A stretch of 64,000 bases of DNA, taken from contig NZ_QOLC01000051.1 in assembly GCF_003333325.1 (NCBI RefSeq), positions 55,451 to 119,450 of the forward strand. The letters run 5' to 3'. Below the pieces are notes generated by a model. That model ran no database searches. It saw only the letters and a program-made list of their open reading frames with translations, and was not told the DNA's origin. Source of the DNA: Candidatus Ulvibacter alkanivorans. GTDB lineage: Bacteria > Bacteroidota > Bacteroidia > Flavobacteriales > Flavobacteriaceae. The position numbers and the translations under genes are program-made. Positions 1 to 64,000 of this stretch are shown here, one piece after another; the first letter of the stretch is position 1; every line of letters begins with the position of its first letter.

Positions 1-42
1 ATTATACCCAATGAACCTGGGCAGGTAATGCTGCTAAGGGAA
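1..42 (+). promoter_or_regulatory. TPP (THI-box) riboswitch, 3' portion, cut by window start
   Basis: Positions 6-41 match the conserved 3' half of the thiamin pyrophosphate aptamer. ACCC is followed by TGAACCTG, then a GCAG/CTGC stem (21-24 with 31-34) closing a GTAATG loop, then AAGGGA, where GGG can pair back to CCC. This has the same order as the THI-box element GAACCTG..GG-TAATG-CC..AGGGA. The 5' half with the CTGAGA pyrimidine-sensing loop lies outside the window. The aptamer precedes a terminator and a TonB-dependent receptor, so thiamin control of that receptor is expected. Confidence 0.85.
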
Positions 43-75
43 TACGATGCTCACAAGCATCTTCGTTGTTATACC

Positions 76-109
76 CCTATTGCGTCTTAAGGATCCAATA
101 GGTTTTTTT
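76..109 (+). terminator. Intrinsic terminator of the riboswitch expression platform
   Basis: CCTATTG (76-82) pairs with CAATAGG (96-102) and is followed at once by seven T residues (103-109). It sits between the TPP aptamer and the receptor gene. The simplest reading is a ligand-controlled terminator that stops transcription when TPP is bound. A small GATGC/GCATC hairpin (46-61) lies between aptamer and terminator. Confidence 0.75.
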
Positions 110-177
110 ATACAACTATTTTAATAACCAAACTCAAGAATAAGACCCCTTTTATTCGTAACAAAACCAATGTACGA

Positions 178-2355
178 ATGAAACGTATTTTTTTATCCAT
201 CTTATTTTTAGCAGCTACAACTTGTACGCTAGCGCAAGAGAAAACAACAGACAGTACTAAAGTAGAAGCATTAGAAGAGGTGCTTATTAAATCGGTACGC
301 GTAGATGCCGATTCACCTATCACGCATTCTAATCTTGACAAAGAAGAACTGGAAAAGCGTAATTTGGGACAAGATATCCCGTATATGCTTTCGTATTTGC
401 CCTCGGTAGTTACAACCAGTGATGCCGGTGCGGGAATTGGATATACCTATATTCGAGTTCGAGGTAGTGATGCCTCACGAGTGAATGTAACTTTAAATGG
501 AATTCCATTTAACGATGCTGAAAGTCAAGGAACTTTCTTTGTGAATCTGCCCGATTTTACATCATCGGTTCAAAATTTACAACTGCAGCGTGGCGTAGGG
601 ACCAGTACGAATGGGTCTGGTGCTTTTGGAGCCAGCTTGAACATTCTTACCGATGGTGTTTCTGAAACGGCCTATGGTGAGATTTCAAATGCTGTGGGCT
701 CCTATAACACTCGAAAACACAATGTGAAATTTAGCACAGGCTTGTTGAACAACCGTATTGAAATTGCCGGGCGATTGTCTACCATTCAGTCTGATGGGTA
801 TATAGACCGGGCGAGCTCCGATCTTAAATCCTATTTTTTACATGCTGCTTACTTAGATAGAAATACGTTGATAAAAGCATTGGCCTTTGGCGGAAGAGAA
901 GAAACCTATCAAGCCTATTTTGGGATTGACGCCGAAACGTTGGCCAACGACCGCACCTTTAATCCTGCCGGGATGTACACCGATGAAGACGGTAATGTAA
1001 AGTTCTATGATAATGAAGTAGACAATTATGCACAAGATCATTATCAGTTGTTGTGGAACCAACGATACAACAATAAATGGAGCTCGAATGTGTCCTTAAA
1101 TTATACCTACGGAAGAGGATATTTTGAACAATATAAAGAGGATGAGGATTTTGAAACCTATAATTTCGATCCCATAGAAATAGGTGGAGAAACGATTAAT
1201 ACCACCGATCTAATTCGTCGCCGTTGGCTAGATAATGATTTCTATGCTGTAAATGCCAATGTAAACTATAAAGATAACGATGTTGAGGTAAGCAGTGGTG
1301 CGTTTTTTAGCACTTACAGTGGCGATCATTTTGGTGAGGTGATCTGGGCACAGTTCGCCGGTGGGAGTGAGATTAGAGATCGCTATTACTTTGGTGTAGG
1401 TGATAAGAATGAGTTTACCGTTTTTACAAAGGCCACATGGCGTATTGATGACCAATGGAGTGTTTTTGGAGATTTGCAAGGACGATTTATTAGTTATGAA
1501 ACCAGTGGAACTACTTCCGATCTTATTACCTTGAATGTAGACCAGTCGTATTCGTTCTTCAATCCGAAGGCGGGAGCATCGTTTCAGTTAAATGAAAAGA
1601 ACCAATTCTATGCTTCCTACGGAAGAGCAAATAGGGAGCCGCGACGTAGCGATTTTGAACAAGGCATCTTTACTGCCGAAAAATTAGATGACATTGAGTT
1701 GGGGTGGCGCTACGCTTCCGAAGCAACCAATATAAGCACCAACTTGTTCTACATGGATTATACCGATCAATTAGTGCTTACGGGAGCGATCGATGATGTT
1801 GGTGCACCAATTCGAGAGACAAGTGGAGAGAGCTACCGAATAGGACTAGAAGTAGATGCTGAAATTCGTTTGAGCCAATCATTTACAGTGCGACCTAATA
1901 TAGCATTAAGCAGTAATAAGAATGTAGATTTTGTATTTCAACGTGATGGAGAACTGGTGAACTTAGGGAATACCAATATTTCGTATTCACCCGAAATCGT
2001 TGCCGGAAATATAGTTGAATATAGACCTATTCCTAATCTGCAATTCGCTTTGTTGTCTAAGTATGTTGGAGAGCAGTTTATGGGGAATATAGACAGTGAG
2101 GTATCTAAATTAGACAGCTATTTTATTAATGACCTCAATATAGTTTATGAGTTAAGAGAAGTGCCGTTCGTCGACTCCATCTTGTTAAACGGTTTGGTAA
2201 ACAACCTCTTTAATGTGGAGTATGTGTCTAACGGATATTTCTTTACGTTCGATGATGATTTTAGCGAGCCGGGGACCATTACCACGATTGAAGGTGCCGG
2301 ATTCTACCCGCAAGCTACTATCAACTTCTTGGTGGGAGCCACTGTTCGGTTCTAG
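178..2355 (+). CDS. TonB-dependent outer-membrane receptor, probable thiamin transporter
   Basis: The 725-residue product is of normal length for a TonB-dependent receptor. It starts with a signal peptide (MKRIFLSILFLAATTCTLAQ) and a short linker, then a plug domain at about residues 45-160 with the typical VRGSDASRVNVTLNGIPFND segment. A long beta-barrel follows and ends in a C-terminal Phe (VGATVRF), as usual for outer-membrane barrels. The protein sequence alone does not give the substrate. The TPP riboswitch and terminator directly upstream point to thiamin or a thiamin precursor, and receptors under THI-box control are known in Bacteroidota. Import would be driven by TonB-ExbBD. The 3' end overlaps the convergent lipoprotein gene by about 3 bp. 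Confidence 0.88.
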   Translation: MKRIFLSILFLAATTCTLAQEKTTDSTKVEALEEVLIKSVRVDADSPITHSNLDKEELEKRNLGQDIPYMLSYLPSVVTTSDAGAGIGYTYIRVRGSDASRVNVTLNGIPFNDAESQGTFFVNLPDFTSSVQNLQLQRGVGTSTNGSGAFGASLNILTDGVSETAYGEISNAVGSYNTRKHNVKFSTGLLNNRIEIAGRLSTIQSDGYIDRASSDLKSYFLHAAYLDRNTLIKALAFGGREETYQAYFGIDAETLANDRTFNPAGMYTDEDGNVKFYDNEVDNYAQDHYQLLWNQRYNNKWSSNVSLNYTYGRGYFEQYKEDEDFETYNFDPIEIGGETINTTDLIRRRWLDNDFYAVNANVNYKDNDVEVSSGAFFSTYSGDHFGEVIWAQFAGGSEIRDRYYFGVGDKNEFTVFTKATWRIDDQWSVFGDLQGRFISYETSGTTSDLITLNVDQSYSFFNPKAGASFQLNEKNQFYASYGRANREPRRSDFEQGIFTAEKLDDIELGWRYASEATNISTNLFYMDYTDQLVLTGAIDDVGAPIRETSGESYRIGLEVDAEIRLSQSFTVRPNIALSSNKNVDFVFQRDGELVNLGNTNISYSPEIVAGNIVEYRPIPNLQFALLSKYVGEQFMGNIDSEVSKLDSYFINDLNIVYELREVPFVDSILLNGLVNNLFNVEYVSNGYFFTFDDDFSEPGTITTIEGAGFYPQATINFLVGATVRF

Positions 2356-2786
2356 TTAGTAATACGAACTGTATTGCCCGTGCGTACCGCACGGTATTGC
2401 TGCATAGGGTATTTTGAAGGATCTGTTCTATGTTCACCGGTGACGATGTTGTATTCGTTGTCATCGGTGGTACAGGGACACGTTGCAATTGGAGCTTCAA
2501 TTTCCATACGAGAACAATTATTTGGCGGGTGATTAGGATCGGTGAGATCGAAGGCCGTATAGAGTTCATTGTTCACGTTGTAAACCACTATTCCTCGAAT
2601 TCCTTGCTGATTTATAATCACGCTATTACCGGGAAAATTTAACGGATTGTATTGTGGGAGATTTAGATTTAGGGTAAGGCTCACCAACGGATCGATGAGA
2701 TTTGGGTTGTCTTCACGGTCATCGTCATTATTAGAGCAGGCTGTTAAAACGAGTGCCGCCACCACTATTAGGTATCTAATATTCAT
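2352..2786 (-). CDS. Small lipoprotein with a Rieske-like fold but degenerate ligands
   Basis: The 144-residue protein has a type II signal peptide with lipobox LTAC (Cys17) and an Asp/Asn-rich linker. The rest (about 60-144) resembles small Rieske-like proteins of flavobacteria: AFDLTDPNHPP, a Cys at CSRM, a CPC pair, YNIVTGEH and a C-terminal YRAVRTGNTVRI strand. The canonical CxH...CxxH cluster ligands are not present in that form, so iron-sulfur binding is doubtful. The family assignment rests on memory of similar proteins. It is convergent with, and touches, the thiamin-type receptor gene; a functional link is not shown. Confidence 0.75.
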   Translation of the reverse strand: MNIRYLIVVAALVLTACSNNDDDREDNPNLIDPLVSLTLNLNLPQYNPLNFPGNSVIINQQGIRGIVVYNVNNELYTAFDLTDPNHPPNNCSRMEIEAPIATCPCTTDDNEYNIVTGEHRTDPSKYPMQQYRAVRTGNTVRITN

Positions 2787-2843
2787 ATTTTAAAAGAAAT
2801 TTCGGTCAAAAGTACGATAAAATGTACAACAACTAATTTTTTG

Positions 2844-3457: not shown

Positions 3458-3850
3458 ATGGCGACCGTATTTACAAAGATCATTAACGGAGAAATTCCCA
3501 GCTATAAGATAGCTGAAGATGAAAATTTTATTGCCTTTCTGGATATTAATCCAAACGCAAAAGGCCATACGCTATGTGTACCCAAACAAGAAGTAGATAA
3601 AATTTTCGATCTGGGAGAGCACGTGTATCTTCAATTGATGCAGTTCTCGAGAAAAGTCGCATTGGCCCTTCGGAAAGCAGTGCCATGTGAACGTGTTGGA
3701 ATGGCTGTTATCGGCTTGGAAGTTCCTCATGTGCATGTGCATCTAATTCCAATCAATGAAATGAAAGATATGACCTTCGATCATAAGGTCACCTTAAGCG
3801 AAGCCGAGTTTAAAGAATTGGCAGCCGAAATTTCAAGTCATATTTCCTAG
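3458..3850 (+). CDS. HIT-family (HinT-like) nucleotide hydrolase
   Basis: The 130-residue product shows the histidine-triad motif HVHVHLIP at residues 91-98. The first half has the usual EDENFIAFLDINPNAKGHTL nucleotide-binding strand region. Proteins of this branch hydrolyse purine nucleoside phosphoramidates or aminoacyl-adenylates in the cytoplasm. It follows greA with a two-base gap, a pairing that is frequent in Bacteroidota. The precise substrate cannot be told from the sequence. Confidence 0.93.
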   Translation: MATVFTKIINGEIPSYKIAEDENFIAFLDINPNAKGHTLCVPKQEVDKIFDLGEHVYLQLMQFSRKVALALRKAVPCERVGMAVIGLEVPHVHVHLIPINEMKDMTFDHKVTLSEAEFKELAAEISSHIS

Positions 3851-5462: not shown

Positions 5463-6347
5463 ATGATTTCTATCGACCCTAAGGATATTAGTACTGGTAA
5501 ACTTCATGGCTATCTGCTTGGCGCCGTTTCTCCTAGACCCATTTGTTTTGCGAGTACGATCGACGGTAAAGGCAACGTGAATTTGTCACCGTTTAGTTTC
5601 TTCAACGTGTTTAGTGCAAATCCGCCGATCATGATATTCTCTCCGGCGCGGAGGGTGCGAAATAATACGACCAAGCATACACTTGAAAACGCTTTGGAGA
5701 CCAAAGAAGTTGTGATCAATATTGTAAGTTACGATATGGTACAACAAATGTCACTATCATCGACCGAATACGATAAAGGAATCAACGAATTTACAAAAGC
5801 GGGCTTTAATGCAATCGCTTCCGATCTTGTAAAACCCCCACGAGTTGCCGAAGCACCTGTTCAATTCGAATGTAAGGTGAACGAAGTGGTCGCACTTGGT
5901 GATAATGGAGGAGCCGGGAATTTGGTAATATGCGAGGTAATAAAACTACATATAGCTGAATCTATTTTAGATGGAGATGGCAGGATCGATCCTGAGAAAC
6001 TCGATGCCGTGGCGCGTATGGGAGGCAATTGGTACAGCCGTGCGAAAGAAGGAATGTTCGAAGTGCCAAAGCCACTGTCTACGATAGGAATTGGAGTTGA
6101 TGCACTGCCGGAACGAATTAGGAACAGTAGGGTGCTTACCGGAAATGATCTTGGTATGCTAGGAAATATAGAGGCACTACCAACAGCAGCAGTTGTTACT
6201 GATTTTTTAAATGCTTCGGAAGAAAACAAGTCGTTGATAGCATCAGGAAATACAGAGCAAATACATAAAAAAGCGCAGCAATTGCTTTGCGACGGAAATC
6301 TGTCCGAAGCATGGAAGCTGCTAGCAGCTCACGAAAGCAATACGTAA
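5463..6347 (+). CDS. Flavin reductase-like (FMN-binding split-barrel) protein
   Basis: Start ATG 5463 is chosen over an in-frame TTG at 5445, because the TTG sits on the probable promoter box. The 294-residue product begins with the split-barrel pattern of the flavin reductase/DIM6-NTAB family: LLGAVSPRPICFASTIDGKGNVNLSPFS, then SANPPIMIFSP and a DTKE-like dimer strand. Such proteins bind FMN and reduce flavins or act as oxygenase partners. The C-terminal third (about 200-294) is an extension beyond the flavin domain. It precedes a methyltransferase gene by six bases. Confidence 0.85.
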   Translation: MISIDPKDISTGKLHGYLLGAVSPRPICFASTIDGKGNVNLSPFSFFNVFSANPPIMIFSPARRVRNNTTKHTLENALETKEVVINIVSYDMVQQMSLSSTEYDKGINEFTKAGFNAIASDLVKPPRVAEAPVQFECKVNEVVALGDNGGAGNLVICEVIKLHIAESILDGDGRIDPEKLDAVARMGGNWYSRAKEGMFEVPKPLSTIGIGVDALPERIRNSRVLTGNDLGMLGNIEALPTAAVVTDFLNASEENKSLIASGNTEQIHKKAQQLLCDGNLSEAWKLLAAHESNT

Positions 6348-6353: not shown

Positions 6354-7091
6354 ATGTATGTGCAACTTAAAAATTGGGCTAAGAAAATAGTTCCAAACCA
6401 ATGGCTTCGAAAGCACGAAGGATTTTTAAGAGGCTTGATCGCGCTACAATATAAAGGCAAAACCTACCAATGTAATGTGTGTGGATATGCCTTACGAGCG
6501 TTCATTGAATTAGAAGATAAGGGTAAATTGTGTCCCAATTGTGGGAGCTTGGCGCGTACGCGTTATTTGTGGCAATTCCTCTTAGATGCGATCGGACTAA
6601 AAGATAAGGTCGTCTTGCATTTTTCACCACCGAAGAAGATCTCACAACGACTTAAAAGAAGTGGTGTGAAGGAGTATGTCACGACAGATTTTGAAAATGA
6701 ATTTACAGCCGATAAACAGCTTAATATTGAAGAAATTGATGAGCGTGACGCCGTTTACGATCTTATTATTTGTTTTCATGTTTTAGAACATATCGAGAAC
6801 GATCGTAAAGCGATGGCCGAATTATATCGAATTCTGAAACCCGGAGGTAGGTGTTTGGTGCAAACCCCTTTTAAAGAGGGAGCAATATACGAGGATGCCG
6901 ATATAAGCACTCCGGAAGCACGATTGAAGCACTTCGGGCAAGAAGATCACGTTCGGGTCTATTCGGTTAACGGATTGGAACAACGGCTACAGTCGGTCGG
7001 ATTTAAAGTAACCCGTCATACAAATACGGCAGCGGCAACCAATTTTCATGGGTTTCCGAAGCAATTAACACTATTAATAGCAGAAAAATAA
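6354..7091 (+). CDS. SAM-dependent methyltransferase with N-terminal zinc ribbon
   Basis: The 245-residue product carries four cysteines (40, 43, 60 and 63; CNVC and CPNC) that look like a zinc ribbon. A class I methyltransferase domain follows, with the acidic motif IICFHVLEHIENDRKAM and the LKPGG turn before a beta strand. The glycine-rich motif I is not clear; the segment VVLHFSPPKKI takes its place. The methyl acceptor is unknown. It is probably co-transcribed with the flavin-binding protein just upstream. Confidence 0.82.
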   Translation: MYVQLKNWAKKIVPNQWLRKHEGFLRGLIALQYKGKTYQCNVCGYALRAFIELEDKGKLCPNCGSLARTRYLWQFLLDAIGLKDKVVLHFSPPKKISQRLKRSGVKEYVTTDFENEFTADKQLNIEEIDERDAVYDLIICFHVLEHIENDRKAMAELYRILKPGGRCLVQTPFKEGAIYEDADISTPEARLKHFGQEDHVRVYSVNGLEQRLQSVGFKVTRHTNTAAATNFHGFPKQLTLLIAEK

Positions 7092-7527: not shown

Positions 7528-8904
7528 ATGAATATCACCAAAGCCATTGAAACGGTCTTTAATCGATTTTTGCCATCACCATTCGCGATCGCAATTATCT
7601 TAACGATGGTTACAATGGCTTTGGCATTGTGTTTTACGAACGCTCCTGCCGATCAAAATCATTTTCTGGCCATACTGTCGTTCTGGGAAAACGGTATATG
7701 GAACAACGCCTTGCTTGTTTTCGCCTACCAAATGATGCTCATCTTGGTACTTGGCCACATTTTGGTGCTAAGCAAACCAATGAGCAAGGCGATAGAAAAG
7801 CTTACCAATTTGGTAAGTAATACTTCGAATGCCGTCTTGCTCGTGAGCATTACTACCTTGCTCGTTTCCTTCTTTAATTGGGGACTTGGATTGATCTTTG
7901 GCGCGATCATGGCTCGCAAAGTTGCAGAAGCAGCACAATTGCGTAATTTCAGTATAAATTATCCATTGGTAGGTGCTTCAGGATATGTTGGTCTAATGAT
8001 CTGGCACGGGGGCATTAGCGGGTCTGCTCCATTAAAAGTGGCCGAGGCAGGACATCTCGCCAGTTTAATGTCGGGCATTAGCGATCCTACTATTCAAGCA
8101 CAATTGCCTACGGCTATTTCATTTAGTGAGACAGTTTTTAGTGTACCCAATTTACTGTTGTTCGGAGTATTGCTAGTGCTAATCCCGGGATTTCTATACC
8201 TGCTTTCTAAAAGAGTAAGTGTATCAAAAATAAACTTGCCAATTTACAACAACACAACAGAAGAGAAGCAAACAGTTATTGGCGCCGACCGATTAGACCA
8301 TTCAAAATACTTGGGAGCGATCTTCGGAATTCTTATCCTAATTGCGTTTGCCTATCAATATGCCGGAAACCTTACAGAGCTTGCTATCACCCCTAATCTT
8401 CTTAACTTTTTTATGTTGGGATTAGGACTCTTGCTACACGGAAGCTTTGCTTCATTTCTTAGAGCACTCCAAGAAGCGATATCGGGTGCTGCAGGAATCT
8501 TGATCCAATTTCCTTTATATTTTGGTATCATGGGAATCATGCGCGATAGCGGAATGGTAGTTCAAATATCCGACTTCTTTGTTTCGATCGCCACGCCACT
8601 TACTTTACCAATCTTTACTTTTTTTAGTGCTGGCCTTGTAAACGTATTTGTGCCAAGTGGTGGAGGACAGTGGGCCGTCCAAGGTCCTATTGTGGTAGAG
8701 TCGGCATTAAAGCTAGGCGTGCCGCTGCCAAAGGCGATCATGGCCTTGGCCTATGGAGATCAGATCACCAATATGCTGCAGCCCTTTTGGGCATTGCCAT
8801 TGCTCGCTATAACCCGATTAAAAGCCAAAGAAATTTTGCCGTATACCGTTCTTATTATGATCTTAGGAGCGATCGTCTTTCTTAGTGGTTTATTAATTTT
8901 TTAA
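7528..8904 (+). CDS. Short-chain fatty acid transporter (AtoE family)
   Basis: The 458-residue integral membrane protein has about 12 hydrophobic segments. It contains family features of AtoE-type permeases: a conserved FNWGLGLIFGA helix, the GASGYVGLMIWHGGISGSAPL loop, and NVFVPSGGGQWAVQGP near the C terminus. Known members carry acetoacetate or short-chain fatty acids across the inner membrane. No catabolic genes are adjacent, so the substrate here is inferred only from the family. Confidence 0.88.
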   Translation: MNITKAIETVFNRFLPSPFAIAIILTMVTMALALCFTNAPADQNHFLAILSFWENGIWNNALLVFAYQMMLILVLGHILVLSKPMSKAIEKLTNLVSNTSNAVLLVSITTLLVSFFNWGLGLIFGAIMARKVAEAAQLRNFSINYPLVGASGYVGLMIWHGGISGSAPLKVAEAGHLASLMSGISDPTIQAQLPTAISFSETVFSVPNLLLFGVLLVLIPGFLYLLSKRVSVSKINLPIYNNTTEEKQTVIGADRLDHSKYLGAIFGILILIAFAYQYAGNLTELAITPNLLNFFMLGLGLLLHGSFASFLRALQEAISGAAGILIQFPLYFGIMGIMRDSGMVVQISDFFVSIATPLTLPIFTFFSAGLVNVFVPSGGGQWAVQGPIVVESALKLGVPLPKAIMALAYGDQITNMLQPFWALPLLAITRLKAKEILPYTVLIMILGAIVFLSGLLIF

Positions 8905-8952: not shown

Positions 8953-9597
8953 ATGCATTTTCTCAGTTCTTCTGAAATTTATTTTCCTTCCCCTTCTGAA
9001 GCTTCAGAAGAAGGTCTGTTGGCCATTGGTGGTGATTTGTCTGAAGCACGAATCCTACTCGCATACCAATCGGGTATATTTCCATGGTACGAGGCGACAC
9101 AACCTATTTTATGGTGGAGTCCGGATCCGAGAATGGTACTGTTTCCGAAGCAATTCAAGGTATCTAAAAGCCTTCAGAAAAAAGTAGACAAAAACTATTT
9201 TAAGGTCACTTTTAATACACAGTTCGAGCAGGTAATACGAAAGTGCGCAAGTGTTCCGCGCAAAGAACAAGACGGTACGTGGATCTCAGAAGCCATGATA
9301 AAGGCATATATTAAGCTACATCGTAAGGGACATGCGTATTCGGTTGAGGTATGGCGTTCGTCGAAGTTGGTAGGAGGGCTTTACGGTATTGATCTTCCCA
9401 AACAAGGCGTATTTTGTGGAGAGAGTATGTTCAGTGAAGAATCGGATGCGTCTAAAGTTGGTTTTTATCATCTTGTAGCGCAGTTACAAGAAAAAAACTA
9501 TTCGTTGATCGATTGTCAAGTGTACTCTGAGCACTTGGAACGACTGGGAGCGAAAGAAATTTCCCGTGATCGATTCTTAGCGTATTTGAAGTGTTAA
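8953..9597 (+). CDS. aat: Leucyl/phenylalanyl-tRNA--protein transferase
   Basis: The 214-residue product shows typical Aat motifs: GLLAIGGDLS near the N terminus, YQSGIFPWYE, WWSPDPRMVL, then the GNAT-like core with VEVWRSSKLVGGLYGI and FCGESMFSE, and DCQVYSEHLERLGA. The enzyme adds Leu or Phe from aminoacyl-tRNA to proteins with N-terminal Arg or Lys and so feeds the N-end-rule pathway (ClpS-ClpAP in other bacteria). Length agrees with the family. Confidence 0.96.
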   Translation: MHFLSSSEIYFPSPSEASEEGLLAIGGDLSEARILLAYQSGIFPWYEATQPILWWSPDPRMVLFPKQFKVSKSLQKKVDKNYFKVTFNTQFEQVIRKCASVPRKEQDGTWISEAMIKAYIKLHRKGHAYSVEVWRSSKLVGGLYGIDLPKQGVFCGESMFSEESDASKVGFYHLVAQLQEKNYSLIDCQVYSEHLERLGAKEISRDRFLAYLKC

Positions 9598-9665: not shown

Positions 9666-11415
9666 ATGAAATTACATTACACTAAAGTGCTACTTGTCAT
9701 GTTATTGACGGTATGTACTACTTTTTCTTTTGGGCAGCAAAATGAAATATTGCCTGCAAATCTAACTCCTTCCGAAGAAGGAATCCTTACCCAATACGAG
9801 TTTACAAACTCACGCATTACGCCACCACCGGCCGGACCGGTACGAACAATGGCCGAATGGGAAGAAGTAGAATATCTAGTACTTACATGGCAACCAAGTT
9901 TTCCAAATATATTACGTCAAATCGTTGCAGCTGCCGTAAATGAGTGTAATGTGATTATTGTTACTCAAAATGAAGCTACAGTTTCTTCCTACCTAACTTC
10001 TAACGGAATCGATATTAGCAATGTTACTTTCTTGGACGTTCCATGGAACAGCATTTGGATTCGTGATTATGCAGGAAATACGGTGTATAGCGATGACGTT
10101 GGGCAACGCAACTTGGTAGATTGGATCTATAACAGGCCTAGACCCGATGATGATGTAATTCCTGCCGCACATGCCAGCTTATTGGGCCTTCCTTTTTATG
10201 CAACCGACTCGGGCACCAACGATCTGGTGAATACCGGAGGTAACTTTATGTCGGATGGCCTCGGAAATGCCTTTGCATCAGAATTAGTATTAGATGAAAA
10301 TGCTGCGGGCAATCCTTATGGTGTTTCTGCAAAGACGGAAGCACAGATAGACGATATCATGTTCAACTATATGGGCATAGAGAACTATATAAAAAATGAC
10401 CCCACTTCCCTACGATGTAATTAATCATATCGACATGCATATGAAGTTGTTGGACGAAGAAACGTTATTGGTGGCCGAATATCCTACTGGAGTAGCCGAT
10501 GGCCCACAGATAGAAGCCAATATCGACTACGTACTATCTAATTTTCAGTCGGCATTTGGAACTCCATTTAAGGTGAAAAGAATTGACTCACCACCAAGTG
10601 AAGGCGGTAATTACCCGGATAATGGAGGATATTATCGAAATTATACCAATGCGGTATTTATTAATAAAACAATTCTTATTCCAACCTATCGGCCGGAAGT
10701 CGATGGGCCTGCACTGGCGCAATGGGAAGAAATGATGCCGGGATACAATATTGTGGGAATAGATGTGGATAATCAAGGTGAAAACTTGATCTCTCAAGTA
10801 GGGGCGATACACTGTATAACACACACCATTGGCGTAGCCGATCCATTATTGATCGTGCACCAACCTATTGCAGAAGCAGGCGCAGGTAGTAATGTGTCCA
10901 TAGACGCTTTGATTAAACACGAATCGGATATTAGTGAAGCGAGTGTTTTCTGGAGACAAGAAGGAGATACCAACTTTTCGGAAGTTGCGATGAGTTTTGT
11001 AAGTGAAGACAATTGGACGGTCGATTTAAGTATTCCTTCGGAAGCGATAGACATTGAATATTATATTACTGCCGAATCAAATTCGGGTAAGACCATGAGT
11101 AGACCTATGGTAGCGCCGGAAGGATTCTGGACCATGAACGTTGCCAATCTTGGAGTTAACGACCTTGCAGCACAATCGATCTCAGCACCATATCCTAATC
11201 CGACAACGGGAGAAGTGCGATTTGATCTGGACCAAATCGACGGACCGGTACTTGTCACGGTTCACAATCTGTTGGGTCAAAAACTAGATGAGATAACTAT
11301 AGATTCAGGAAGAGGAACAATGAAATTGCAATTAAATCGAACTTGGCAAGGAACTTTATTTATAACCTTTGAAGGTGATTTTGGTCGTGTTACTAAGAAA
11401 GTAATTAAAATATAA
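9666..11415 (+). pseudogene. Secreted peptidylarginine/agmatine deiminase-family protein with T9SS domain, frameshifted
   Basis: Two overlapping reading frames (9666-10424 and 10396-11415) make one protein of about 582 residues if one A is removed from the A6 run at 10391-10396. Frame 1 holds a signal peptide and the deiminase motifs EEVEYLVLTWQP and WIRDYA. Frame 2 continues directly with TPLPYDVINHIDMHMK and GAIHCITHTIG, giving the Asp, His and Cys expected for the Porphyromonas-type deiminase fold (PF04371). A linker domain follows, then a type A T9SS sorting domain (SAPYPNPTTGEVRF to the end). No other damage is seen, so a recent mutation, phase variation or a sequencing error are all possible. 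A -1 ribosomal shift at the A run would meet a TGA at once. Confidence 0.85.
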
Positions 11416-12504: not shown

Positions 12505-12549
12505 ATTTTATGTTCGAATTCCGAAGGTACTAAGATTTGCAGCATTTGC

Positions 12550-13272
12550 TTAATACTGCCCCGGAAAATTGTAGGTAATAGTACCTAATTGTTTGTCTTT
12601 AGCGCTATTGGTAGTAAAGCGAGCGTCATTGGCATATTCTAATGCGCTCTCGATCAAGCAGCCATTGGTGGTCGTAGATAGGTTCTTGTTGTAGGTAGCC
12701 CTTGTGATCTTTCCCAAAGCGTTCACTTCTATAGAAATAACGATCTTTCCGCCACCTTCGCAAGTATATACGGGATTGGGCAGATCGATAGCAGTACGGC
12801 CAACAAGCCGATAACTTATAGTTGTTCTGCGATTGGCACCTCGGTTTATAACGGTTTCATTAGAAGATTCGTCTCCATTAGAAAGTCGTTCACGGGTTTC
12901 AATAATTTTTTCTTTCGCTTTTTCTATGCCCGCTTCGTTATTTGTTGCATTCGATTCGGCGATGGCTCGGTCGATCTCGGCTAACTTTCCTTCGATAGTT
13001 TCGGTAGGATCTTCCCTAAGATTTTCAGCATCATTTATAAATTCCTCCGCTTCATTGTACGCACGATTGGTTTCAACGGTCGTCTTTTCCGGAGTCATTA
13101 TGGCCAGTTCTTCCTCTTCCAAGAGTAGCTCTTCGGCTTTATATACTACATCGTAGTTCTCTAGTGGTACTTCTTCATAATTTCCCAATTTTATACTGTA
13201 AAGCACTAAGAAAAGAATTCCGAAGAGAAGAGAAGTGATTAGAAATGCTCGATATGAATAGTTCCAATTCAT
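12550..13272 (-). CDS. TonB C-terminal-domain (energy transducer-like) protein
   Basis: The 240-residue protein has one N-terminal transmembrane helix (about 9-27), a long acidic, helical, Glu/Asn-rich middle region (about 45-150), and a C-terminal domain with the TonB-type pattern (GGKIVISIEVNALGKITRATYNKNLSTTT region, then CLIESALEYANDARF and GTITYNFPGQY). The middle replaces the usual Pro-rich spacer of TonB. It could energise an outer-membrane receptor or be a structural relative. No ExbB/ExbD genes are adjacent. Confidence 0.78.
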   Translation of the reverse strand: MNWNYSYRAFLITSLLFGILFLVLYSIKLGNYEEVPLENYDVVYKAEELLLEEEELAIMTPEKTTVETNRAYNEAEEFINDAENLREDPTETIEGKLAEIDRAIAESNATNNEAGIEKAKEKIIETRERLSNGDESSNETVINRGANRRTTISYRLVGRTAIDLPNPVYTCEGGGKIVISIEVNALGKITRATYNKNLSTTTNGCLIESALEYANDARFTTNSAKDKQLGTITYNFPGQY

Positions 13273-13333: not shown

Positions 13334-14023
13334 TTAACTGGATAATGCGTTTTCGAAGGCTTCTATGGTCGTGCTGTCGGCTACATGGAAACTACCAATT
13401 TTAGTGCGTCTTAGACTTGACAGGTGCCCTCCATTATTTAAGGCGCGACCCAAATCATGTGCTAGGGATCGAATATAAGTTCCTTTACTGCACACGACTC
13501 TAAAATCGACTTGCGGTAGTTCGATCCGTGTGATCTCAAAAGAGGATATTCGTACGGTTCGCTTCGGAATGTCAACATCTTCGCCTGCACGTGCAAATTC
13601 ATACAATCGTTTTCCGTCTTTTTTTAATGCAGAAAACACCGGCGGTTGTTGTTGTATCTCGCCTACAAACTGTTGGGCGGTTGATTTAATTTTCTCTGAA
13701 GTCACTTCGGAAAGTGAATAGGTGGCATCAATTTCGGTCTCTAGATCATAACTGGGAGTCGTAGCGCCCAAGGTAATAGTGCCGGTGTATTCCTTTTCTT
13801 GCGCTTGAAAGCTTTCGATCTTTTTGGTGAACTTTCCGGTACATAAAATAAGTAAGCCGGTAGCCAACGGATCTAAAGTACCGGCATGTCCTACTTTAAT
13901 TTTTTTAATGTCAAATTGTTTTCTAATTAACCACCGAACTTTATTGACCACCTGAAATGAGGTCCAACCCAAAGGTTTATCGATAAGGAGTACTTGCCCC
14001 GATTTGTAGTCATCTGCTGTCAT
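13334..14023 (-). CDS. truB: tRNA pseudouridine-55 synthase
   Basis: Start ATG at 14023-14021 overlaps the stop codon of uppP by one base (TAATG). A longer in-frame reading upstream would lie within uppP. The 229-residue product has the TruB N-terminal motif LLIDKPLGWTSFQVVNKVR and the catalytic-Asp motif HAGTLDPLATGLL, followed by YTGTITLGATTPSYDLE and CSKGTYIRSLAHDLG. It makes pseudouridine 55 in the T-loop of tRNAs. The order ftsX, DUF3098, uppP, truB suggests one operon. Confidence 0.96.
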   Translation of the reverse strand: MTADDYKSGQVLLIDKPLGWTSFQVVNKVRWLIRKQFDIKKIKVGHAGTLDPLATGLLILCTGKFTKKIESFQAQEKEYTGTITLGATTPSYDLETEIDATYSLSEVTSEKIKSTAQQFVGEIQQQPPVFSALKKDGKRLYEFARAGEDVDIPKRTVRISSFEITRIELPQVDFRVVCSKGTYIRSLAHDLGRALNNGGHLSSLRRTKIGSFHVADSTTIEAFENALSS

Positions 14024-39909: not shown

Positions 39910-39920
39910 CGATTCAAACT

Positions 39921-40652: not shown

Positions 40653-40681
40653 CGAAGTTTCCGAAGTCATAAAAATTCCCG

Positions 40682-43665: not shown

Positions 43666-43676
43666 CCACCACGCAT

Positions 43677-49220: not shown

Positions 49221-49231
49221 TCCAATTTACC

Positions 49232-49606: not shown

Positions 49607-49624
49607 CCCTAACGAGGCACTTTT

Positions 49625-53291: not shown

Positions 53292-53295
53292 GCAG

Positions 53296-54177: not shown

Positions 54178-55861
54178 AAAGTTTGCATCATTTTTACCCC
54201 TTCTTGCGTTGTTGCTTTCGTTACTGTTTGTTTCCTGCGGAATCAATAGGTCGCTAAAGCATCGTCCGGACCTTTCACAGTACAATAGTGAGGAACCCGT
54301 GAAGACGGTTGTAAATGATTCTACTTTTTTCGTCGGAAACAGTTTTCTTACTAAGAACCAACACGGGCTATGGGAAATGTATGTTGAAGGCGATGCCTTA
54401 GAACGCGGACTGCGAATGGGAAGTCTTACTGAAGCGTTACTGCAAAAGCAGGAAGCGGTGTTCTTAAATAAGGTGAACGAATTAGTACCGTCCCCATCCA
54501 AACAAAAATTTCTTCGGAAGTTCTTATCATGGTACAATCGAAAACTACACCTTCATATAACTCCCGAGTATCAAGCCGAGATCTATGGCGTTTCCAGATT
54601 TGCTTCCAACGAATTCAACGAAATTGCACCGCCCTACCTTAGGGCTATGTATCTACATGGAGCTCATGATATTGGTCACGCTTTGCAGGACTTGGCGTTG
54701 GTTGGTTGTACCTCTTTTGCGGTCTGGGACGATAAAAGCGCCGATGGGCAGTTGCTAATAGGCCGAAACTTTGATTTCTATGCAGGTGATGCTTTTGCCG
54801 AAGAGAAGATCATAGCATTTGTAAATCCGGAACACGGTTATAAATTTATGTCGGTGACCTGGGGTGGAATGATCGGAGTAGTTTCGGGTATGAACGAACA
54901 CGGCCTCACGGTTACGATCAATGCAGGGAAATCGAAAATCCCCTTGGTCGCTAAAACACCCATATCGTTAGTGACACGAGAGATCTTACAGTATGCTACC
55001 ACCATAGATGAGGCGATCGATATTGCCAAAAGGAGAGAAGTGTTTGTTTCCGAAGCCATTTTTATTGGAAGTGCCAAAGACGACCGCGCAGCGCTTATTG
55101 AAGTGGCCCCTAGGAAGTTTGGAGTGTATGAGGTCGAAAATTCGGCAAATCAATTGATCTGTTCAAATCATTTTCAAAGTGAAACCTATGTGAACGACCG
55201 CCGTAATCGCAAGACCATAGAAGAGAGTCACACCCAGTACCGATTTGATCGAATGGAAGAATTATTAGATAACGCCCAAAAGATCGATCCCGCTCTCGCA
55301 GTTTCTATTCTTCGGAACAAAAAAGGATTGAACGATAAAGATCTAGGGTATGGAAATGAAAAGGCGATCAATCAGTTATTAGCACATCACGGTATTGTTT
55401 TTCAACCGGAAGAGCGACGCGTATGGATATCCACAAATCCGTATCAATTAGGAGAATTTGTTGCTTACGACTTAGATGATGTCTTTGCCAATCGCAGCGG
55501 CAACCCTTCCGAAGTAAGCCTTTCTATACCTGCCGAAACCATTGCGCAAGATCCGTTCGTTGATAGCGACACTTTTGCTCAATACGAGGAATACCGTACA
55601 CTTGAACGCAAATTTGAAAATGCATTGGACGGTGAGAGCCATACCTTAAAAACACAAGAAGCCGAACAACTCATCGCGCTCAACAGCGCTTATTGGAAGG
55701 CATATTACTTGGCCGGTCGTTATTATTACGATACAGAAAATTATGATCGTGCTGTAGAAAAATTATCGATTGCCGTACAAAAAGAAATACCTTCGCTGGC
55801 AGAATTGGAAGAGGTGGAAAAATACCTTCGGAAGGCGAAACGTAAACATTCTAACCAATAG
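54170..55861 (+). CDS. C45-type Ntn acyltransferase/hydrolase, lipoprotein (pigment cluster)
   Basis: The 563-residue protein has a lipobox (LFVSC, Cys23). The Ntn core has Cys180 in LALVGCTSFAVWDD as likely nucleophile after autocleavage, followed by GRNFDFYAGD and GMNEHGLTVTINAG, as in acyl-CoA:6-APA acyltransferase-like C45 proteins. The C terminus has TPR-like helices (about 500-560). Proteins of this type are common in flexirubin-type clusters and could form or cleave an amide or ester link outside the inner membrane. Confidence 0.85.
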   Translation: MIKKFASFLPLLALLLSLLFVSCGINRSLKHRPDLSQYNSEEPVKTVVNDSTFFVGNSFLTKNQHGLWEMYVEGDALERGLRMGSLTEALLQKQEAVFLNKVNELVPSPSKQKFLRKFLSWYNRKLHLHITPEYQAEIYGVSRFASNEFNEIAPPYLRAMYLHGAHDIGHALQDLALVGCTSFAVWDDKSADGQLLIGRNFDFYAGDAFAEEKIIAFVNPEHGYKFMSVTWGGMIGVVSGMNEHGLTVTINAGKSKIPLVAKTPISLVTREILQYATTIDEAIDIAKRREVFVSEAIFIGSAKDDRAALIEVAPRKFGVYEVENSANQLICSNHFQSETYVNDRRNRKTIEESHTQYRFDRMEELLDNAQKIDPALAVSILRNKKGLNDKDLGYGNEKAINQLLAHHGIVFQPEERRVWISTNPYQLGEFVAYDLDDVFANRSGNPSEVSLSIPAETIAQDPFVDSDTFAQYEEYRTLERKFENALDGESHTLKTQEAEQLIALNSAYWKAYYLAGRYYYDTENYDRAVEKLSIAVQKEIPSLAELEEVEKYLRKAKRKHSNQ

Positions 55862-55867
55862 GTGCTA

Positions 55868-57166
55868 ATGAAAATACCAACTATTGAATTACGATCGAGA
55901 GCAGACATCAAGGCGTTTCAAGAAGAAAAATTGAAACACCTATTAGAATATCTGTTTGCGAATTCTCCCTACTATCAACGTATCTTTAAGCAGCATCAAA
56001 TTGAGGTCTCGTCCATACGGTCGTTAGAAGATCTGCGAAAGATTCCGTTTACTACCAAGGACGATCTACAACACTACAACGAAGAATTTTTATGTGTATC
56101 ACACAAAGAGATAATCGATTATGTGACTACTTCTGGTACTCTGGGCGAACCGGTTACTGTTGCATTAACGGACGCCGACCTCGACCGTCTTGCATATAAT
56201 GAAGCTATTTCCTTTGCTTGTTCGGGTATTACTGCCAATGATACCATACAATTAATGACGACCATAGATCGTCGATTTATGGCCGGTCTCGCGTATTTCT
56301 TAGGGGCTCGAAAATTAGGCGCCGGTATTGTTCGTGTTGGCTCCGGTGTTCCCGAATTACAATGGGACAGTATTCTAAAATTTAATCCAACGTATTTGGT
56401 ATGCGTTCCTTCTTTTCTTCTGAAACTGATCGACTACGCAAAGCAACATGATATTTCACTTTCAGAAACGAGTGTAAAAGCAGCCATTTGTATTGGTGAA
56501 CCCATTCGTGAAGCCGACTTTGGTTTAAACCTGTTGGCTAACAATATTAAAGAAGCTTGGGATATCGAGCTATACGCTACTTATGCATCTACCGAAATGA
56601 GTACCGCATTTAATGAATGTGCAAGCCATCGCGGAGGTCACCAGCACCCGGAATTGATCATTACCGAAATAGTAGATGAGAATGATGTGCCTGTCGAGGA
56701 AGGGGTAGCCGGCGAATTAGTGATCACTACCTTAGGAGTTGAAGGAATGCCGTTACTCCGATTTAAGACCGGAGATATTGTGGAAGCACATACAGATGGT
56801 TGTGAGTGTGGTAGGAACACGCCTCGACTTGGTCCGGTTTTAGGGAGGAAACAGCAAATGATAAAGTATAAAGGAACCACCTTATATCCGCCGGCCCTTT
56901 ACAATGTGTTACATCATTTTACCGAGATTGAAACCTTTGTAATAGAGTTGTTTCAAAACGAGCTCAACACCGATGAGATACGAATAAAGATTGCGGTCGA
57001 GCAACCTTCCGAAGCATTGACCCAAAAGATCATAGATCATTTTAGAGCTAAATTAAGAGTACGTCCCACCATAGCGTTTTGTACGGCAGCAGAAATAGAC
57101 TCGATTCGACAACCGGCTATGAGCAGAAAACCTGTTTGGTTGATCGACACCCGAAACAAGCATTAA
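55868..57166 (+). CDS. Phenylacetate-CoA ligase-like adenylate-forming enzyme (pigment cluster)
   Basis: ATG 55868 is preferred to GTG 55862. The 432-residue protein has the adenylation motif DYVTTSGTLGEPVTVALT, ELYATYASTEM and LRFKTGDIVEAHTDGCECGRNTPRLGPVLGRKQQMIKYKG, the PaaK-type layout. It likely activates 4-coumarate (made by the tyrosine ammonia-lyase) as the starter and loads it on CoA or ACP. It is the last gene of the operon and its stop overlaps the convergent lipoprotein gene by four bases. Confidence 0.87.
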   Translation: MKIPTIELRSRADIKAFQEEKLKHLLEYLFANSPYYQRIFKQHQIEVSSIRSLEDLRKIPFTTKDDLQHYNEEFLCVSHKEIIDYVTTSGTLGEPVTVALTDADLDRLAYNEAISFACSGITANDTIQLMTTIDRRFMAGLAYFLGARKLGAGIVRVGSGVPELQWDSILKFNPTYLVCVPSFLLKLIDYAKQHDISLSETSVKAAICIGEPIREADFGLNLLANNIKEAWDIELYATYASTEMSTAFNECASHRGGHQHPELIITEIVDENDVPVEEGVAGELVITTLGVEGMPLLRFKTGDIVEAHTDGCECGRNTPRLGPVLGRKQQMIKYKGTTLYPPALYNVLHHFTEIETFVIELFQNELNTDEIRIKIAVEQPSEALTQKIIDHFRAKLRVRPTIAFCTAAEIDSIRQPAMSRKPVWLIDTRNKH

Positions 57167-57765: not shown

Positions 57766-58586
57766 TAGATCTTAAATGTGATCACTGGCATGTTAGCATG
57801 GTTTACCATATCTTCACTTATACTTCCGTTAAAGAAATGCGACAGTCCTTTACGACCATGGGTGCTCATACCCACTAATTGGGCATTGGTTTCTTTGGCG
57901 AAATTGAGAATTCCTTTTTCTACCGAATTGTCATTGTAAACATTTAAACTGTAATTTTCAACATTGGATCCTTTTACGAAATCCTGCATCATTTTCTGTG
58001 CTTCGGAAGAAGTTTTAAATCCGGCAGGCGTGTTCACATACAGTAAGTTGATCTTAGCCCCAACGGTCTTTGCAAATTTTTGAGCTTCCTCAAAACTTTT
58101 TTTACATTCTGAAGAGAAGTCGGTAGCAAAAACAAAATTGTCGACATCGAAAGAAGGGTGTTCGTTCTTTATAACGAGTACCGGGATTTTAGAAGTGCGA
58201 ACAACTTTTTCTGTATTACTTCCAATAAACATTTCTTTAAATCCACTAGCTCCGTGTGAGCCCATGATGATCAATTCGATATCGTTGGTGCGTACGGCTT
58301 CGGAAATATCGTCGTAGATCTCTCCATGACCAATGGTCTGGTACACCGGTACATCTTGAAGAAATGGTTTTTTGAGGGTTTCTTCAAAGTGTTTTTCGGC
58401 CAATTTTATAAAGTACAACGCTTCGGGTAGACTTCCGGTACTTCCAGAATTAGCCAGGTGTAACGGCATTTCCATAGAGTGCAGCAAAAAAATCTCACTA
58501 TCGTGTTTTTTTGCCATTTGAGCCGCTACTTTCAAGGCATTGTCTGCCTGCGGAGAGAAATCGGAAGGTACTAAAATTCGTTTCAT
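57765..58586 (-). CDS. Tandem universal stress protein (two UspA domains)
   Basis: Start ATG 58586-58584 (MKRILVPSDFS) is chosen; an upstream TTG/ATG adds no homology. The 273-residue protein has two UspA domains (about 1-140 and 145-273), each with a start strand (ILVPSDFSPQADNAL; FVFATDFSSECKKSF) and an ATP-binding loop (GSHGASGFKEMFIGSNTE; STHGRKGLSHFFNGSISE). Such proteins bind ATP and help cells to survive stress or growth arrest. Confidence 0.93.
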   Translation of the reverse strand: MKRILVPSDFSPQADNALKVAAQMAKKHDSEIFLLHSMEMPLHLANSGSTGSLPEALYFIKLAEKHFEETLKKPFLQDVPVYQTIGHGEIYDDISEAVRTNDIELIIMGSHGASGFKEMFIGSNTEKVVRTSKIPVLVIKNEHPSFDVDNFVFATDFSSECKKSFEEAQKFAKTVGAKINLLYVNTPAGFKTSSEAQKMMQDFVKGSNVENYSLNVYNDNSVEKGILNFAKETNAQLVGMSTHGRKGLSHFFNGSISEDMVNHANMPVITFKI

Positions 58587-59218: not shown

Positions 59219-60451
59219 ATGGAAAATTTAGCGTTAATTGATTCTTTTTCAGAATTCAAGGACGATAAACTGATTGATAGAGTAACGCTGATGGCGATAC
59301 TTGAAGACGTTTTTAGAAACGCGTTAAAGAAGAAATATGGTAGTGATGACAATTTTGATATCATTATCAATCCCGATAAAGGAGATTTAGAGATCTGGAG
59401 AAACCGTGTGGTTGTTGCCGATGGTGAAGTAGAAGAGCCAAATGAAGAGATTTCTTTAACGGAAGCTCGTAAGATTGAAGCGGATTTTGAAATTGGTGAG
59501 GATGTTTCCGAAGAGGTAAAATTAATCGACCTTGGACGTCGTTCTATTTTGGCATTACGTCAAAATTTGATCTCCAAGATCCACGAACACGATAACACCA
59601 ATATTTACAAGCAGTTTAAAGAACTGGAAGGAGAGATCTATACGGCCGAAGTTCATCACATTCGTCATCGTGCCGTAATTTTACTAGACGATGAAGGAAA
59701 TGAGATCATTCTTCCGAAGGACAAACAAATTCCTTCCGACTTTTTTAGAAAAGGAGATAATGTTCGTGGAATTATTGAAAGTGTGGAACTTAAAGGGAAC
59801 AAGCCGGCAATTATCATGTCGAGAGCAAACCCATTGTTCCTTGAAAAATTATTTGAACAAGAGATCCCGGAAGTGTTCGACGGACTTATTACCGTTAAGA
59901 AGGTGGTGCGTATCCCCGGAGAAAAGGCTAAAGTGGCGGTAGACTCCTACGATGATCGTATCGATCCTGTGGGTGCCTGTGTGGGTATGAAAGGTTCAAG
60001 AATTCATGGCATTGTTCGTGAATTAGGAAATGAGAACATCGATGTAATCAATTATACTAATAACTTACAGTTGTTTATCACAAGAGCGTTGAGCCCTGCA
60101 AAAGTGACCTCTATCAAATTGAACGAGGAGACGAAACGCGCCGAAGTAATTCTTCGACCTGAAGAAGTAAGTAAGGCCATTGGTCGTGGTGGACATAACA
60201 TTCGTTTGGCGGGACAACTTACTGGTTACGAGATCGACGTATTGAGAGAAGGTGCCGAGGAAGACGTAGAATTAAGAGAATTCTCTGATGAGATCGAAGG
60301 ATGGATCATCGATGAATTCCGTAAAATTGGTCTGGACACAGCTAAAAGTGTGTTAGAGCAAGATATTCATGATTTGGTGAAGCGAACCGACCTAGAGGAA
60401 GAAACGATCGCCGAAGTTATCAACATATTAAAAGAAGAATTTGAAGAGTAG
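59219..60451 (+). CDS. nusA: Transcription termination/antitermination factor NusA
   Basis: The 410-residue protein has the N-terminal RNA-polymerase-binding domain (about 1-125), an S1 domain (about 130-200: [19 protein letters not shown]), and two KH domains with [19 protein letters not shown] and [17 protein letters not shown] short acidic C-terminal tail follows. The two C-terminal acidic repeats of the E. coli protein are absent, as in other Bacteroidota. NusA controls pausing and termination, so it could act on the leader hairpin of its own operon. Confidence 0.97.
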
Positions 60452-63237: not shown

Positions 63238-63259
63238 GAAGTTTTTCTTCGGAAGAAAA

Positions 63260-63289
63260 GCGCTCGCCATTGGCGAGCGCTTTTTTTTT
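63260..63289 (+). terminator. Intrinsic terminator of the rimP-nusA-infB operon
   Basis: GCGCTCGCC (63260-63268), loop ATT, GGCGAGCGC (63272-63280), then nine T residues. It is a strong hairpin, 22 bases after the infB stop. Confidence 0.92.
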
Positions 63290-63290
63290 A

Positions 63291-63495
63291 TTGTCATCTC
63301 GAATTGTCATCTCGAACGTAGGTGAGAGATCTCTCTTGGAGTGATAATGTAGTTGTAAGATTCTTCGCTTCGCTCTGAATGACAGTTATATGTCATCTCG
63401 AACGTAGGTGAGAGATCTCTCTTGGAGTGATATTTTGTAAGATTCTTCGCTTCGCTCTGAATGACATGAGATTCTTCGCTTTGCTCTGAATGACA
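63291..63495. repeat. REP/MITE-like repeat array downstream of infB
   Basis: Two nearly identical units (63305-63384 and 63391-63466) start with TGTCATCTCGAACGTAGG and end with TTCGCTCTGAATGACA. Each has terminal inverted repeats TGTCAT/ATGACA and a central palindrome GAGAGATCTCTC. A leading fragment (63291-63303) and a 3' fragment (63468-63495) flank them. The copies differ by a short deletion near the middle (AATGTAG-type bases). This is a dispersed palindromic repeat, not CRISPR. No gene is seen here. Confidence 0.85.
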
Positions 63496-63513
63496 GTGCG
63501 GATCACAGCAAGC

Positions 63514-63909
63514 TTACTTGCGGCGTTCAGGCTTTAGGATAAAAGCAGAACTAAAATTATCTTGAATGGCAAGTAAGGCACGATCGGCGTCTAACCGACT
63601 GCTAAAATTTCCAACCCAAACCTTATAATTAGGTGTTTCATACTCGATAGAAGCGGGCCAAGTTCCATACAAACCACGGTATTTTTTTATGATCGAATTC
63701 GCGCGATTTAACTCTCCATAATACAACTGTATGGTGTACCCATCACTTAATTTATTGTCCTTTTCCAGTGACTTCTTTAATTCTAATAATTGTGGGATTT
63801 TCCCATCTTGATTTATAGTGACACTGCCCGATTGTCCAAAAGTTGCTTCCGAAGCGAACAGGGCTAAAAAACTGAAAATAAATAGGTTACGATATATTGT
63901 AGAATTCAT
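63514..63909 (-). CDS. SPOR-domain secreted protein
   Basis: The 131-residue protein has a signal peptide (about 1-26, ending FGQ), then a short linker. Its C-terminal domain has the SPOR layout: GYTIQLYYGELNRANSIIKKYRGLY, PNYKVWVGNFSSRLDADRALLAIQDNF and SAFILKPE. SPOR domains bind septal peptidoglycan that lacks stem peptides. The gene is alone on the minus strand, at the edge of the window, and its upstream region runs out to the end. Confidence 0.9.
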   Translation of the reverse strand: MNSTIYRNLFIFSFLALFASEATFGQSGSVTINQDGKIPQLLELKKSLEKDNKLSDGYTIQLYYGELNRANSIIKKYRGLYGTWPASIEYETPNYKVWVGNFSSRLDADRALLAIQDNFSSAFILKPERRK

Positions 63910-64000
63910 GGGTTTGTATGTTTAGTGCAAATGTAAATCTTATTAACTTCCGAAGTGATAAAAATATTATTTAGAATAAATATAAATTAACGATTAACAC

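Follow-up and report, generated by a model that had tools for sequence, protein, structure and literature searches.

An octamer repeated about once per kilobase

What keeps a single eight-base word at a density of about one per kilobase along a flavobacterial chromosome? The question is raised by a stretch of 64,000 bases from Candidatus Ulvibacter alkanivorans (contig NZ_QOLC01000051.1; 41.4% GC; hereafter, the window), a chromosome piece carrying leuS, flexirubin genes, nusA and infB, in which the initial annotation had spotted by eye about 60 copies of the octamer TTCCGAAG or its complement CTTCGGAA, far above chance. Exact matching over the whole window yields 67 copies (Table 1), against 1.7 expected from composition (order 0) and 5.3 under an order-3 Markov model, a 12.7-fold excess over the latter. 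Here we show that the octamer is a real genomic word, conserved and clade-specific, and we argue, with a probability of roughly 0.57, that it is the core of an uptake-signal-like sequence with a putative function in DNA uptake.

The comparison of 8-mers with Markov models, proposed in the initial annotation for the whole genome and made here on the window, leaves the count unexplained up to order 5. Orders 1 and 4 predict 2.5 and 9.3 copies and order 5 predicts 30.6; the observed number is approached only at order 6 (64.4), where the model is derived from the window's own 7-mers. The octamer is the top-ranked 8-mer of the window, and the words ranked second to sixth all overlap it. All 20 positions named at the outset are exact copies, and both orientations are indeed represented, with 38 copies reading TTCCGAAG and 29 reading CTTCGGAA on the + strand (binomial p 0.33). 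Two of the first impressions did not survive counting: 7 of the 50 CGG arginine codons, rather than most of them, lie inside the motif, and the seeming scarcity in the first 9 kb corresponds to 5 copies against 9.4 expected (Poisson 0.09). The density is 1.05 per kb in the window and 0.40-0.76 per kb in sampled parts of six other octamer-rich genomes.

The octamer is a signal at the level of DNA

Reading frames cover 93% of the window and contain 63 of the 67 copies, as might be expected if the word were a side effect of codon usage, codon-pair usage or mutation that depends on sequence context. However, synonymous shuffling within genes, which preserves the proteins and the codon usage (20 shuffles), leaves 5.8 coding copies in the window (maximum 12) versus the 63 observed, 29.2 versus 269 in 400 kb of genome G294, and 24.9 versus 145 in 400 kb of genome G117; codon usage was rejected on these grounds. 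The four non-coding copies of the window, precisely those that had been reported in gaps between genes (Table 1), fall in 4,271 bases, where composition predicts 0.09, and there are 19 and 13 non-coding copies in G294 and G117, with 0.62 and 0.92 expected from composition. With strand symmetry, background-level one-off words and conservation at identical amino acids (see below) also standing against it, an origin in codon usage or mutational context is very improbable.

Sense and antisense copies are equally numerous (31:32 in the window, 133:136 in G294, and 72:73 in G117), which makes a role in RNA unlikely. An RNA-level element, either a UUCG tetraloop hairpin or a terminator, comes to mind because CTTCGG, as RNA, reads C(UUCG)G. 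The base preceding CTTCGGAA in the window is G in 27 cases and T in 22, and G adds nothing to a stem; hairpins and terminators were also rejected because close inverted pairs are few. Such an element is hardly credible here.

Replication direction is equally irrelevant. Relative to GC skew, the orientations number 79:79 in G117 (20 stretches around the 3.14-Mb contig) and 140:148 in G294, where the plain contig strands give 158:130 (p 0.11). Chi and KOPS (FtsK-orienting polar sequences) are polar sites, strand-biased relative to the direction of replication, and a polar repair or segregation site of this kind is thus contradicted. More generally, the octamer could be the binding site of an intracellular protein acting in repair, recombination or chromosome organization and selected for its density along the chromosome, and a word that is genome-wide, sharp, conserved, and present in both coding and non-coding DNA fits this explanation. 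Nevertheless, the lack of polarity, the random spacing, and the near absence of the octamer from some relatives (20 per Mb in L053 beside 247 in L108), which is hard to fit with a core chromosome function, render it rather unlikely. Because synonymous shuffles remove the copies, non-coding DNA is enriched, and neither the coding nor the replication strand matters, we conclude that the octamer is a DNA-level signal.

An oriented core with a one-sided tail

The element consists of an oriented core, strongest in the form YTTCCGAAG, and an A-rich stretch of about 15 bp on its 3' side. When half-sites of 3-4 bases separated by spacers of 0-8 were scanned, CTTCN1GAAG and TTCN1GAA came out on top both in the window and in 80 kb of G294; for G117, TTCN1GAA led in the 80 kb analysed. 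The palindrome TACGCGTA lies at 6 sites in the window, giving a count of 12 over both strands where order 3 predicts 1.1.

The consensus appears sharp: copies altered off-centre stay, when pooled, at background. The 21 words that differ from the octamer at one non-centre base together occur 60 times in the window, compared with 70.5 expected (order 2), 352 times in G294 (402.5 expected) and 460 times in G117 (426.1 expected); individually, they range from 0 to 3.4-fold, with TTCCGTAG at the top in the window and TGCCGAAG in G117. The perfect copy is 5.3-14.9 times as frequent as the mean one-off word (five genomes; 8-bp core). Variants at the centre of the octamer are raised 1.9 to 6.5-fold, the counts of TTCGGAAG partly overlapping those of perfect copies, as CTTCCGAAG holds both. 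In a second, weaker form of the element, exemplified by TTTCAGAAA, the central base is A.

The A fraction at positions +8 to +22, 3' of TTCCGAAG, is 0.412 (n=798, five genomes). Behind one-off words it is 0.311, behind other GAAG words 0.307, and on the 5' side of the octamer 0.297. The tail accompanies copies in sense (0.440) and antisense (0.385) orientation as well as those in non-coding DNA (0.405). It was detected in all seven rich genomes analysed (A 0.354-0.462 against a background of 0.277-0.314; z 6.6-20.9), with the 5' side at z -0.8 to 1.4; among the seven are G256 and G023, which belong to a second line, near Christiangramia. The flanks thus break the symmetry of the core. Since, in the five pooled genomes, TTCAGAAA has the tail (0.391) and TTCTGAAA lacks it (0.295), we denote the oriented element YTTCMGAAR plus tail. 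Some genomes have a weaker tail behind the second form (for TTCAGAAG in G028, 0.285, z 0.4).

The interrupted palindromic symmetry of the core, as recovered in the half-site scans, suits a highly iterated palindrome of the HIP1 kind, with sites created and kept by an orphan DNA methyltransferase or by methylation-dependent mismatch repair. So does the report that alternate HIPs replace HIP1 in some cyanobacteria (excerpts of PMC4390886), given that another palindrome likewise takes the place of the octamer in five of the genomes studied here. The likeness is that of a highly iterated palindromic word swapped for another in some relatives; the differences are that HIPs are reported with matching methyltransferases, and that the element described here is made asymmetric by its one-sided tail. 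In a search with three Pfam families (PF00145, PF01555 and PF02086) across 31 genomes, several of them drafts, with Type I and other families outside the search, 5 of the 15 rich genomes (G079, G379, G023, G213 and G094) had no match over the cut-off, G094 having one PF01555 match below it, and none of the three families was found over the cut-off in all rich genomes. This weakens the methylation-based explanation. The C-to-T products of the motif are, moreover, not strongly depleted: TTTCGAAG is at 0.7-fold, TTCCAAAG at 0.7 to 1.2, and TTCTGAAG is raised. On balance, a HIP1-type origin appears fairly improbable.

Distribution among genomes

Among 397 genomes of the family of G005, 35 contain at least 150 octamers per Mb, with G294 (705), G028 (683) and G258 (681) at the top; these rates were read from a table with rounded genome sizes. 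In a sample of 395 genomes from the phylum, G005 alone exceeds 150 per Mb and the next has about 120. In a tree of 91 IF-2 proteins, the rich genomes fall mostly in the Altibacter-Aequorivita part and in the line near Christiangramia, where L101-L104 carry 210-412 per Mb and Salegentibacter sp. 24 itself carries 71; other rich genomes are scattered (L105, 231 per Mb; L109, 341 per Mb), and the poor relatives L053, L049 and L044 (16-31 per Mb) stand beside the rich L108. The IF-2 of the window is closest to those of G117 and G002 (89%), the latter being the genome of L002, an Altibacter metagenome-assembled genome (MAG), and the tree places the window beside the Aequorivita group (support 0.67). 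The word TTTCTGAAR tracks the octamer: its ratio to the reversed control word is 5.0-10.8 in 15 rich genomes and 0.9-3.6 in 16 poor ones. In the G117 stretches L131-L150, two other words are depleted, GATCGGA (16 versus 76) and GATCCGA (10 versus 61 expected, order 3).

Conservation and octamer-poor stretches

Orthologous sites, the comparison of which had also been proposed, were compared over 87.7 kb aligned between G258 and G028 at 78% identity, with copies counted from both sides. The octamer is kept at 70 of 125 sites (56%), compared with a fraction of 0.151 over the 5,289 sites of 1,307 permuted words, and, within codons for identical amino acids, at 52 of 76 sites versus 710 of 3,790 for controls. 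At unkept sites, the one-off partners are spread over at least 10 words, the commonest being TTCGGAAG (6 of 23) and TTCCGAAA (4 of 23), so that no single mutational precursor stands out.

Two genomes contain stretches in which the octamer is rare. An island of G028 has 8 copies in 100 kb, versus 174 in 228 kb sampled elsewhere, and a trough of G117 has 11 in 120 kb at 2.36-2.48 Mb, with 9 in the next 20 kb. The GC content of these stretches is lower, and several of the ten frames viewed (134 listed) encode metal efflux proteins or multicopper oxidases, for which reasons we presume the stretches to be acquired DNA.

A second iterated word

A 16-bp perfect palindrome, CGCTTTCGCGAAAGCG, was found through G257, a genome with 5 octamers, and is dispersed in L209-L212, L239 and L240 (G257, G206). 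Five genomes (G026, G206, G221, G257 and G407, with 7, 90, 75, 5 and 10 octamers, respectively) each carry between 445 and 917 copies of its 12-bp core, or about one per 4-7 kb, and none of the other 392 of the 397 genomes has more than 21. Of the 23 sites in 80 kb of G257, 14 fall within reading frames; in 120 kb, 18 one-base variants together have 6 copies against 29 perfect ones; and the 3' flanks are A-rich (0.405 versus 0.307). A tentative link of the palindrome to Dokdonia comes from single copies in L043, which is a Dokdonia MAG, and in L184; both belong to G431.

A few CGCTTTCGCGAAAGCG cores are present in the octamer-poor stretches L221-L225 (G117, 2.36-2.48 Mb) and L227-L228 (G094), as well as in L229-L234 (G028) and L237-L238 (G230); the sampled genes of the G117 and G028 stretches include copper oxidase or metal efflux genes. 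Pairs of cores exactly 933 bp apart recur in G094, G230, G103 and G117, in the last case at 436.6 kb and not within the trough, as if one element had spread. Iterated palindromes at Gillisia, Flavivirga and Christiangramia loci proved to be local or copied repeats. At the locus of Gillisia mitskevichiae (L024, 13082-13902), there are six repeats with the core CAGGCTCAGCCTG outside frames of at least 80 aa, five of them spaced 118-120 bp apart.

The uptake-signal reading

Of the three functions offered in the initial annotation, the uptake signal is the best supported, on account of the density, lack of orientation bias, sharp consensus, 3' A-rich flank, conservation and rarity in the island; the polar repair or segregation site fails on the skew counts, and the methylation site is weakened by the methyltransferase search. 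In this scenario, a putative receptor for DNA, either exposed on the cell surface or located in the periplasm, would bind the element, so that fragments carrying it would be taken up, ComEC would import one strand, and RecA would recombine it. Perfect copies would then accumulate in long-resident DNA by molecular drive, because alleles with the element would be taken up more often.

The uptake signal sequences (USS) of Pasteurellaceae and the DNA uptake sequences (DUS) of Neisseriaceae, established in these two families and, as of 2006, not known elsewhere, occur about once per kb, without orientation bias and with an unusually strong consensus, according to the excerpted text of PMC1626085. 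The octamer resembles both in that it is similarly dense, shows no orientation bias, comes in types specific to clades and is stable from one species to another (same excerpts). The USS of Haemophilus influenzae is described there with two AT-rich motifs on the 3' side, to which the A-rich flank present in 7 of 7 rich genomes on the 3' side and in none on the 5' side compares well, whereas the core described here is another, nearly palindromic one, in another phylum. Neisseriaceae DUS share with the octamer the density, the existence of dialects and, in excerpts of PMC7371117, an atypical distribution in integrated mobile elements; a comparable rarity in presumed acquired DNA is seen in the G028 island, where the octamer is tenfold rarer. 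In contrast, DUS are described without flanking motifs in the PMC1626085 excerpts, whereas the octamer element has a tail, and the DUS receptor is ComP, to which only a putative receptor corresponds here.

Several observations weigh against a role in uptake. Among the 31 genomes searched, ComEC is present in 30 and DUF5689 in 29 (no match in G315 and G419), motif-poor genomes included, and G315, without a DUF5689 match, is motif-rich; as nearly all genomes, rich and poor, have both genes, we rejected them as discriminating genes, and their presence permits an uptake function without singling it out. The core is nearly palindromic, unlike those quoted in the excerpts of PMC1626085. Certain one-off words exceed their expected counts, by as much as 3.4-fold in the window and 3.1-fold in G117, and single-mismatch copies outnumber perfect ones (108 versus 67 in the window; 726:288 and 717:158 in two other genomes), as expected for an 8-bp word. 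In poor genomes, too, the DNA 3' of TTCAGAAG is A-rich (n=21, z 3.9), and GAAG words as a whole, the motif included, are followed by slightly A-rich DNA in the seven rich genomes (0.293-0.336). The second form is poorly conserved between G258 and G028 (TTTCTGAAA at 6 of 18 sites, TTTCTGAAG at 0 of 11).

Further features of USS and DUS are also missing. Reading frames favour one orientation of USS/DUS, and Pasteurellaceae add a gene-end bias (excerpts of PMC2346458), whereas here the two orientations are equal in frames and gene quintiles reveal no bias towards gene ends (p 0.17 and 0.15). Non-coding DNA is not preferred (0.93 versus 1.06 per kb for coding DNA in the window; 0.53 versus 0.74 and 0.32 versus 0.40 in two further data sets), spacing is not regular (coefficients of variation 0.94 and 1.10 versus 0.98 and 1.00 for random placement), and inverted octamer pairs are few.

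Positions of the octamer in the window

The window also contains, at 38383-57163, flexirubin biosynthesis genes, with the FlxA tyrosine ammonia-lyase and the FlxY ligase at opposite ends of the run of frames.

Table 1. Copies of the octamer in the 64,000-base window; + denotes TTCCGAAG on the + strand, and the basis of each row is an exact match.
Feature	Position	Strand	Basis
Octamer core	1716..1723	+	exact match
Octamer core	3668..3675	-	exact match
Octamer core	6214..6221	-	exact match
Octamer core	7054..7061	+	exact match
Octamer core	8322..8329	-	exact match
Octamer core	9143..9150	+	exact match
Octamer core	9770..9777	+	exact match
Octamer core	11036..11043	-	exact match
Octamer core, intergenic	12519..12526	+	exact match
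Octamer core	13218..13225	+	exact match
Octamer core	13562..13569	-	exact match
Octamer core	13705..13712	-	exact match
Octamer core	14229..14236	+	exact match
Octamer core	16787..16794	-	exact match
Octamer core	16866..16873	+	exact match
Octamer core	17277..17284	+	exact match
Octamer core	17562..17569	+	exact match
Octamer core	21588..21595	-	exact match
Octamer core	22667..22674	+	exact match
Octamer core	24248..24255	+	exact match
Octamer core	24324..24331	-	exact match
Octamer core	24462..24469	+	exact match
Octamer core	25894..25901	-	exact match
Octamer core	26158..26165	-	exact match
Octamer core	26741..26748	+	exact match
Octamer core	29254..29261	+	exact match
Octamer core	29675..29682	-	exact match
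Octamer core	32412..32419	-	exact match
Octamer core	32477..32484	+	exact match
Octamer core	33991..33998	+	exact match
Octamer core	35477..35484	+	exact match
Octamer core, 12 bp from copy at 37547	37535..37542	+	exact match
Octamer core, 12 bp from copy at 37535	37547..37554	+	exact match
Octamer core	37774..37781	+	exact match
Octamer core	39896..39903	-	exact match
Octamer core	40226..40233	+	exact match
Octamer core	40316..40323	-	exact match
Octamer core, intergenic	40659..40666	+	exact match
Octamer core	41790..41797	+	exact match
Octamer core	42668..42675	-	exact match
Octamer core	42858..42865	+	exact match
Octamer core	43785..43792	-	exact match
Octamer core	44474..44481	+	exact match
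Octamer core	45707..45714	-	exact match
Octamer core	46894..46901	+	exact match
Octamer core	47488..47495	-	exact match
Octamer core	47537..47544	+	exact match
Octamer core	47742..47749	-	exact match
Octamer core	48238..48245	-	exact match
Octamer core	48662..48669	+	exact match
Octamer core	51107..51114	+	exact match
Octamer core	52075..52082	-	exact match
Octamer core	52328..52335	-	exact match
Octamer core	52667..52674	+	exact match
Octamer core	54512..54519	-	exact match
Octamer core	55048..55055	+	exact match
Octamer core	55310..55317	-	exact match
Octamer core	55507..55514	+	exact match
Octamer core	55826..55833	-	exact match
Octamer core	57007..57014	+	exact match
Octamer core	58001..58008	-	exact match
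Octamer core	58298..58305	-	exact match
Octamer core	59506..59513	+	exact match
Octamer core	59712..59719	+	exact match
Octamer core, intergenic	63247..63254	-	exact match
Octamer core	63847..63854	+	exact match
Octamer core, intergenic	63948..63955	+	exact match

Implications for the Flavobacteriaceae and Bacteroidota

The remark in the initial annotation that the motif lacks a description in flavobacteria agrees with our search: neither the octamer motif nor the 16-bp palindrome is described among the matches listed from the literature searched, which left most subscription journals outside its coverage. To our knowledge, no uptake signal is known in the phylum Bacteroidota. The octamer is most likely an uptake-signal-like word in this phylum, sharing a good part of an uptake signal's architecture, and one for which no prior report appeared among the matches listed.

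Natural competence is documented in Riemerella, which the authors of PMC7965970 and PMC8459023 place in the Flavobacteriaceae. In the excerpts of PMC7965970, Riemerella columbina prefers its own DNA, which is the best competitor in transformation, but no uptake sequence is established there and the listed k-mers consist of A/T-rich runs. R. anatipestifer depends on proteins that do not resemble known ones, and homologues of this machinery are reported across the Flavobacteriaceae (excerpts of PMC8459023). As the second word CGCTTTCGCGAAAGCG replaces the octamer, with A-rich 3' flanks, in five genomes, we tentatively consider a broader possibility, which we regard as doubtful: that an uptake-signal system peculiar to the Bacteroidota exists in several dialects and is read by the machinery first found in Riemerella, which has no known homologues among other uptake systems. 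The dialects would be YTTCMGAAR plus the A tail in the Altibacter-Aequorivita group and the line near Christiangramia, and CGCTTTCGCGAAAGCG in perhaps Dokdonia-like genomes. The lack of a DUF5689 match in the motif-rich G315 makes this proposal less probable.

If the octamer does act in uptake, uptake sequences would have arisen independently in Bacteroidota, with another uptake machinery, and it would become feasible to test whether biased uptake is by itself what drives words of this kind into genomes. An element of this type would offer a kind of explanation for the self-preference of Riemerella and, in motif-rich genomes, a marker of recently acquired DNA, along with a genetic tool for marine flavobacteria.

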